The notes below the pieces were generated by a model that was not told the origin of the DNA, ran no database searches, and saw nothing but the letters and a program-made list of their open reading frames with translations. A program made the position numbers and the translations under genes. From contig JAIQES010000009.1 of NCBI GenBank assembly GCA_020073705.1, positions 1 through 64,000 on the forward strand: 64,000 bases of DNA, in the 5' to 3' direction. Positions 30,726-32,222 of the stretch are shown here, piece by piece. The number at the start of each line of letters is the position of its first letter. The first letter of the stretch is position 1. The DNA is from Terriglobia bacterium (GTDB taxonomy: Bacteria > Acidobacteriota > Terriglobia > Acidiferrales > UBA7541).

Positions 30726-32222
30726 TCAAGCTGCATCGCTGTGTGCGGCTTGCCGCACGAGTCGAGGCGCCATAATCCGGGCGCCAGGCGCAAGGATGTG
30801 GACGGGATGATGACATGCAAATTCCATCAGGCGTATTGCGACGGACAATTTGGACGCAAGGGGCTGTGCTTCAATGTACCCTTCGGCGCGCACTACAATT
30901 ACACCCGAACAGTTCTCCACTTCCAGACGCCGGACGCCCCGGTAAGGTTTGGCGCCGAACGCGTTTGCCAAACGCAACATAGCGGCCAGAAGGACGAGCG
31001 ACTGCCGTAACGGAAGCTGGTAGGTCTTCAATATCTTGTGGTGCAGATCGGGCAAGGCACGGCGATGGAACCGCGCGACCAACGCCACCAGGTCGAGGTC
31101 CCTCTTGGACCAGCCGACCGGCGGCGTGGTTCTGCGAATCATCCGATAGGACTCTTTGTGGTGGGCTTTGCTCTTCCGGAAAAGGCCAACGTCCTGCAGC
31201 AACGCCGCAGCATGGAGAATGAACCGCTCCTCGATATCCGAATCGCGTCCAACCAGTCCGCAATTTGCAAACCCATCGTAAATTTGCAATGCGAACCTTG
31301 CGACCTTGCGAACGCGAGGGAAATCGGGCGTTACAAAATAGGCCCAGGCGGCAAGCCTCGCCAATCCGGCGGACCGCAGTTTCCTTTCCCCAGGCAATCC
31401 CTCTCGCCAGACCCAAAGGGGAGACGATTTCCCCGCCATTTTCGCGCGATATTGTTGAAGCCGGGAGGAGCGCTCCGCTTCCAGCTTCTTGGCCCACAGG
31501 GTACGGGTTGCTTCGTCAGAACGACGCCTGTTTTTCACGATCATTTGTGAAAGGACATCCAGGTCGTGAATTTCCCCAAGCAAGTCCTGCAGAAATTTCA
31601 AGTCTGGCGCCCAGCCGGGATACATCGAAGGAAGGAAATTCTCGACGGCGTATCGAAATTTCTTGAGTTCCACGCGCAGCCGGTGGTACGCGATACGGCT
31701 CCGGTTCTTTTGCGCGCGACGATGCAGGTCCCGAACGGCCTCCCAAGTTTCGAGCGCCAGGGCCTCACAGGCAGACTGATCGGAAACCAGGTGGCGGAAA
31801 CGGCCGGTCAATTCCCTCACCCAGGCGCGCCATTGCTTCCTGTCAAACTCTCTTGCGGCGTCCTGCGCCGTGGCGCGATCCTGCTCATATTTTGCCTTCA
31901 ACCCTTCAAGAAGCGTTGCGGTTGAAGCTTCGCCCGGAGTGCCGAGCCGCTCTACCCATTCCGTCAAGACCTGTGCGTCCCGCAATGCTCCTAAATGCTG
32001 GAAAAGGTGCCTCCCTGCCTTTCGCATGGGCTTCCAATCACCGCCCGGGTCCAAATCTTTCATGATGTCGGCGATTAGAATGCAGCGGCGTAAGGCAACA
32101 CGCAGGTCATGGACGGGGTCGGCAGACAAGTGATCGCCGAGTTTCGCGTGTTCCTCGAGGACCTGGTCCATCCAGTACATGAGACCAGTCTTCTCCGGAT
32201 TGATGGCGCCCGATACAGCCAC
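30726..32222 (-). CDS. CHAD domain fused to a Ppx/GppA-type HD domain
   Basis: 498 aa. Residues about 12-280 are a CHAD domain, with the conserved-histidine segment PVHDLRVALRRCILIADIMK and GALRDAQVLTEWVERLG, and a second half with YHRLRVELKKFRYAVENFLP and LLGEIHDLDVLSQMI. CHAD helices bind polyphosphate. Residues about 310-480 resemble the C-terminal HD-like domain of exopolyphosphatase: ERFILHAAALLQDVGLFRKS, AHHKESYRMIRR, LVALVARFHRRALPDLHHKI and LLAAMLRLANAFG. In Ppx the first motif is usually 'ALLH(D/E)(I/V)G'; here the His is Gln. The ASKHA phosphatase domains of Ppx are absent. It should bind polyphosphate, perhaps in granules; catalysis is doubtful. GTG start; no operon partner. Confidence 0.8.
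   Translation of the reverse strand: MAVSGAINPEKTGLMYWMDQVLEEHAKLGDHLSADPVHDLRVALRRCILIADIMKDLDPGGDWKPMRKAGRHLFQHLGALRDAQVLTEWVERLGTPGEASTATLLEGLKAKYEQDRATAQDAAREFDRKQWRAWVRELTGRFRHLVSDQSACEALALETWEAVRDLHRRAQKNRSRIAYHRLRVELKKFRYAVENFLPSMYPGWAPDLKFLQDLLGEIHDLDVLSQMIVKNRRRSDEATRTLWAKKLEAERSSRLQQYRAKMAGKSSPLWVWREGLPGERKLRSAGLARLAAWAYFVTPDFPRVRKVARFALQIYDGFANCGLVGRDSDIEERFILHAAALLQDVGLFRKSKAHHKESYRMIRRTTPPVGWSKRDLDLVALVARFHRRALPDLHHKILKTYQLPLRQSLVLLAAMLRLANAFGAKPYRGVRRLEVENCSGVIVVRAEGYIEAQPLASKLSVAIRLMEFACHHPVHILAPGARIMAPRLVRQAAHSDAA

Follow-up and report, generated by a model that had tools for sequence, protein, structure and literature searches.

The window, by which we mean the whole 64,000-nucleotide stretch of DNA analysed, carries a gene for a protein that joins a CHAD domain to the C-terminal half of an exopolyphosphatase (Ppx) (Table 1). 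The initial annotation had placed this ORF exactly, without giving its strand, which is the minus strand. The gene is preceded by an MsrP/MsrQ-like pair and followed by a porin-like gene. These immediate neighbours are not repeated in L054, the one relative of the genus that we compared closely, and therefore no function was read from them.

Table 1. Positions of the fusion gene and of its domains in the window.
Feature	Position	Strand	Description or basis
CHAD + Ppx-C fusion gene	30726..32222	minus	498 aa, GTG start; orthologues found
CHAD domain, residues ~8-278	31389..32201	minus	Pfam, model, fold search, profile alignment to 6qv7
Ppx domain III / HD-fold part, residues ~285-424	30951..31370	minus	Pfam, fold search, column counts
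Ppx domain IV-like part, residues ~425-480	30783..30950	minus	Model secondary structure, structural alignments reaching residues 477-482
HD metal-site positions of the window protein	R303, Q343-D344, H354, H386, N420		Column counts

Domain composition and predicted structure

Pfam detected PF05235 (CHAD) at residues 27-227 (E 2.8e-26; 93.4 bits against a cut-off of 25.6) and PF21447 (Ppx-GppA_III) at residues 301-420 (E 2.3e-11; 44.3 bits against a cut-off of 27.3). The latter domain scored 46.4 bits in a search of the window's own genome, which has two genes with Ppx domain III, the fusion and a complete ppx located on a different contig, and a single CHAD gene, the fusion itself. PF02541, the Ppx-GppA ASKHA phosphatase family, gave no match in the window protein up to E 10, and residues 1-278 correspond to CHAD; the phosphatase domains are thus absent, as had been proposed. 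No CYTH/TTM domain was matched by Pfam in this protein, whose CHAD domain begins at about residue 8, and no NCBIfam model matched it.

An AlphaFold model built from an alignment of 29 full-length orthologues had a mean pLDDT of 90 and a pTM of 0.87. In fold searches, its residues 7-286 matched the solved CHAD structures 6qv5 (Z 20.6) and 6rn5 (Z 20.2) and the polyphosphate (polyP) complex 6qva (Z 19.2) over 249-270 residues, with CHAD matches overall at Z 18.7-20.6. Residues ~280-480 matched the C-terminal halves of Ppx/GppA proteins at Z 15.5-18.9, the best being 6pc0 (18.9), 8jgo (18.6), 2flo (18.1) and 1u6z (17.8), with 8gtz and others also found. The C-terminal half thus resembles the Ppx HD domain in structure, and the outcome that the initial annotation had named as refuting its reading did not occur; its domain order, CHAD followed by a Ppx/GppA-type C-terminal HD domain, is the one on which the Pfam, model and structural matches agree. 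A profile search against the PDB concurred (8jgt, E 5.4e-27; 6qv7, E 1.5e-14).

HD proteins outside the Ppx/GppA group reached only Z 11.6 and lower with the same model. The C-terminal part is therefore specifically the Ppx half rather than any HD domain. Beyond domain III, the model displays the elements of domain IV, namely strands at 432-438 and 441-447, a helix at 457-470 and a strand at 474-477, so that the fusion contains both domains III and IV, the complete C-terminal half of Ppx. The earlier description of this part as an HD domain was correct for the fold of domain III but incomplete, as domain IV had been overlooked.

PolyP ligand residues and the HD metal site

Mutations that abolish or weaken polyP binding by CtCHAD affect H253, R256, R260, R296 and R418/Y419 (PMC6537752). 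By motif and profile alignment, these residues correspond to H38, R41, R45, R81, R190 and Y191 of the fusion, which are invariant in 29 of 29 fusions. With every mutation-tested ligand residue in place, the assignment of the CHAD domain to the polyP-binding type holds.

As for the second half, the isolated C-terminal half of Pseudomonas aeruginosa Ppx has no enzymatic activity and its loss removes the preference of the enzyme for long chains (PMC4631893), while the Escherichia coli enzyme binds the chain mainly via its C-terminal region (PMC3411833). PolyP binding by the fusion is thus well supported from this side too, as its second half represents the known long-chain-binding, non-catalytic part of Ppx. 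This half is basic, with 36 Lys and Arg for 18 Asp and Glu. Column counts were made on a set of 98 sequences, 96 of them with the Ppx half aligned. R384, P391 and R417 are kept in 96/96 of these, and K356 and H386 in 95/96 each. All these positions are mostly or fully common to the 16 Ppx sequences that we compared.

The HD metal site is less constant. The window protein lacks three of the usual ligands, having R303 for the first His, Q343 for the His of the dyad and N420 for the last Asp, and the H...HD...D pattern of active HD domains is therefore broken (R303, Q343-D344, N420). The initial annotation was right to report a Gln instead of the first HD histidine as far as the HD dyad is concerned, in the motif AALLQDVG. 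Among the 98 fusions, 78 have the first His, 84 have the dyad His and 69 have the dyad Asp, and 62 carry Asn for the last Asp. Q343 is thus a trait of a lineage and does not define the family, because 84 fusions have His at that position. Judging from these substitutions, the HD metal site is eroded in the window lineage.

The frequent conservation of the two His and of the dyad Asp is what favours a catalytic reading: polyP or a nucleotide would be, or would have been until a short time ago, the substrate of a metal-dependent phosphohydrolase formed by the HD part, whose activity was then lost in the window lineage. PF01966 (HD) also matches Terriglobales members and the closest relative with E values of 1e-5 to 1e-8, whereas it has no match in the window protein up to E 10. 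Nevertheless, the same His residues are present in 15/16 Ppx proteins, whose C-terminal half alone is inactive (PMC4631893). The replacement of the last Asp in most fusions also argues against catalysis, and on the HD tree the dyad His and the first His each underwent at least four changes while the basic positions stayed fixed. From its residues, an active HD hydrolase is unlikely in the window lineage, although His-complete relatives such as L058 may have one, and we regard the hydrolase reading as a whole as quite improbable.

Distribution, history and genetic environment

Near full-query matches with 32-70% identity were found in 34 of the 101 genomes searched, the window's own genome included. 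At least 80 loci are present in named Acidobacteriota MAGs, including Candidatus Acidiferrum, Acidobacteriaceae and Candidatus Sulfotelmatobacter, the best 80 matches of the contig scan being all from Acidobacteriota. Within the class, approximately 66 of the 399 genomes sampled have a full-length orthologue, and these genomes all belong to families f1 and f11. A sample of the phylum at E <= 1e-60 yielded four further genomes, from one family (f41) of another class.

The HD domains of the fusions group together in a single clade (SH-aLRT 100), separate from Ppx. A recent partial duplication of the neighbouring ppx is ruled out by this separation from the Ppx proteins of the family. Comparisons within the genus gave dN/dS values of mostly 0.1-0.2 for CHAD and for each of the two Ppx subdomains, with dS near saturation in several pairs. 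These low ratios imply that the second half is maintained and that both halves are under purifying selection. We also discarded the idea of a decaying pseudo-domain, as dN/dS of the Ppx half is as low as that of CHAD and its basic positions are fixed.

CHAD-only proteins that stop before the Ppx C-terminal half occur in two genera of the window's family, g4 and g7. They belong to the same CHAD lineage, those of g4 sharing the extension to about residue 276, and a quick CHAD tree placed them among or beside the fusions, which suggests a secondary loss of the HD half in both genera. In an AU test, a single fusion clade was not rejected (p 0.77), so that the fusion may have arisen only once, and the CHAD-only proteins of g4 and g7 may represent either a loss or the older state.

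Two departures from the usual architecture were seen. At L162:3228-4659 (genome G329), the CHAD part and the Ppx C-terminal part are encoded by separate, overlapping ORFs that differ in frame, as a result of a frameshift, a sequencing error or gene fission. In genus g51 of family f11 (G113, G263, G321, G307, G381), a break of the match near profile position 100 in open frames of 560-686 aa suggests an insertion inside CHAD.

A set of genes comprising a pair of thymidylate-kinase-like genes, a complete ppx and sixA is oriented convergently to the fusion gene in the majority of the f1 genomes that we inspected, and the fusion lies within approximately 1-2 kb of ppx in many family members. The window's own genome has this set on contig C7, with ppx at L032:5763-7340, and the fusion apart on C29, and in Terriglobales the fusion is located elsewhere, away from the ppx set. 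In one f41 genome (L158), a sixA-like gene directly precedes the fusion on the same strand. A set of SixA, PPX, dTMP kinase and CHAD has been reported for biomining archaea of the Sulfolobales (PMC10892726). This neighbourhood and its archaeal parallel tie the fusion to polyP metabolism. A phage or defence role is unsupported, with no match in NCBIfam, PHROGs or PADLOC.

Directly after the fusion in Terriglobales, and before recR and dnaX, we observed a conserved gene for a protein of ~187 aa (L126:8074-8637 and relatives, a cluster of 30 loci), which has no match in Pfam.

The main rival to a polyP-holding function stems from this genetic association. The fusion might be an adaptor or regulator of full-length Ppx, with its Ppx half pairing with the C-terminal half of the enzyme in place of one subunit, and CHAD bringing or withholding polyP. 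Ppx enzymes dimerise, and their C-terminal halves take part in this in the E. coli structures. The proximity of the fusion gene to ppx, sixA and the kinase pair in many family members is consistent with such a role, as is the retention of a full ppx in nearly all fusion genomes searched. Nevertheless, the separate clade formed by the fusion HD domains means that co-evolution as an interchangeable Ppx subunit is not evident, and the fusion and ppx are unlinked in both the window's genome and Terriglobales. We therefore consider an adaptor role rather unlikely.

The tandem thymidylate-kinase-like genes adjoining ppx and sixA (L032:7331-8880; ~77.3-78.9 kb of C7 in the window's own genome) deserve mention in their own right. 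Among solved structures, the nearest to the first is 2plr from Sulfolobus, deposited as 'Probable thymidylate kinase', with 130.8 bits, the next kinases reaching 56. In nearly all of the pairs seen, the Walker A motif of one copy reads GxDGSGKST, with an Arg for the Lys in the other copy. A third thymidylate kinase gene of the same genome is located elsewhere (C21). The PPK1 middle domain is absent from this genome and from 23 of the 25 f1 genomes searched, and a single PPK2 is encoded at C29:84142. A 'distinct family of polyphosphate kinases' was recently named in Crenarchaeota, according to a title given in PMC13318637. Because this genome and most family members have no PPK1, and given that newly named crenarchaeal family, the tandem genes are candidate polyP kinases.

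Under a more specific proposal, the non-catalytic Ppx half with CHAD would be a Ppx pseudo-subunit in Acidobacteriota, governing chain access or processivity as part of a polyP gene set of sixA, ppx and thymidylate-kinase-like genes shared with Sulfolobales, in a family mostly devoid of PPK1. We deem it slightly less plausible again than an adaptor role in general.

Proposed function and comparison with known polyP-binding proteins

The CHAD ligand residues, together with a Ppx half that grips long chains and is inactive, make two polyP grips without catalysis the most economical reading. Thus, we propose that the fusion is probably a non-catalytic, phosin-like polyP-binding protein with two binding modules, which would hold long chains or granules. 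The basic pore of the CHAD domain would thread and hold polyP, and domains III and IV would provide a second, putative polyP surface. In the absence of a catalytic domain, the two modules together may bind long chains or granules avidly, and the protein could cross-link or coat them, thereby controlling polyP storage or the access of Ppx and kinases to it. We infer polyP binding by the fusion protein itself, its avidity and its role in storage or on granules from these features of its two halves.

Two observations count against this proposal. The CHAD-only relatives of g4 and g7 manage without the Ppx half, and therefore the second module is dispensable there. Furthermore, deletions of the Ralstonia CHAD proteins and of ygiF had no apparent phenotype (PMC6537752). 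The roles of polyP sensor and granule organiser envisaged in the initial annotation are hypothetical, and the protein lacks a signalling partner domain. In other bacteria, CHAD proteins are granule-associated (Tumlirsch and Jendrossek 2017, as cited in PMC6537752), and the fusion might alternatively position polyP granules by tethering them to a further structure of the cell, for example the nucleoid. However, the model has no extra DNA- or membrane-binding domain and its C-terminal tail is short, making a tether very improbable.

There are few polyP-binding proteins, and their deletion often has no phenotype, which leaves their role unclear. A natural two-grip protein without an enzyme allows the holding of long chains by avidity to be tested as a mode of action, and the Ppx tail to be tested as a natural stand-alone polyP-binding module. 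As a polyP probe, the fusion could also be stronger than each of its modules taken singly. No CHAD-Ppx C-terminal fusion was found in the mainly non-subscription literature that we searched, and to our knowledge a two-module polyP-binding protein of this kind has not been described previously.

CHAD-only proteins, i.e. the Ralstonia CHAD proteins, PptA of Streptomyces, CtCHAD and SsCHAD, share with the fusion the CHAD fold, the polyP ligand residues and the lack of a catalytic domain, but the fusion differs from these phosins by the addition of a complete Ppx C-terminal half. The chad gene of Sulfolobales is found with sixA, ppx and a dTMP kinase gene, as in the family of the window (PMC10892726). 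The CHAD-only proteins of g4 and g7 are of the same CHAD lineage as the fusion, which alone carries the Ppx half. In TTM-CHAD proteins of the ygiF type, CHAD is also joined to a second polyP-related domain; in contrast, the partner in the fusion is not a CYTH/TTM tripolyphosphatase, and it follows CHAD rather than preceding it. Relative to Ppx/GppA proteins, the fusion has the same C-terminal fold and conserved HHK, RYH, P and LR positions, but CHAD replaces ASKHA domains I and II and the HD domains form their own clade. Both modules are therefore known, and what is new is their combination without an enzyme.
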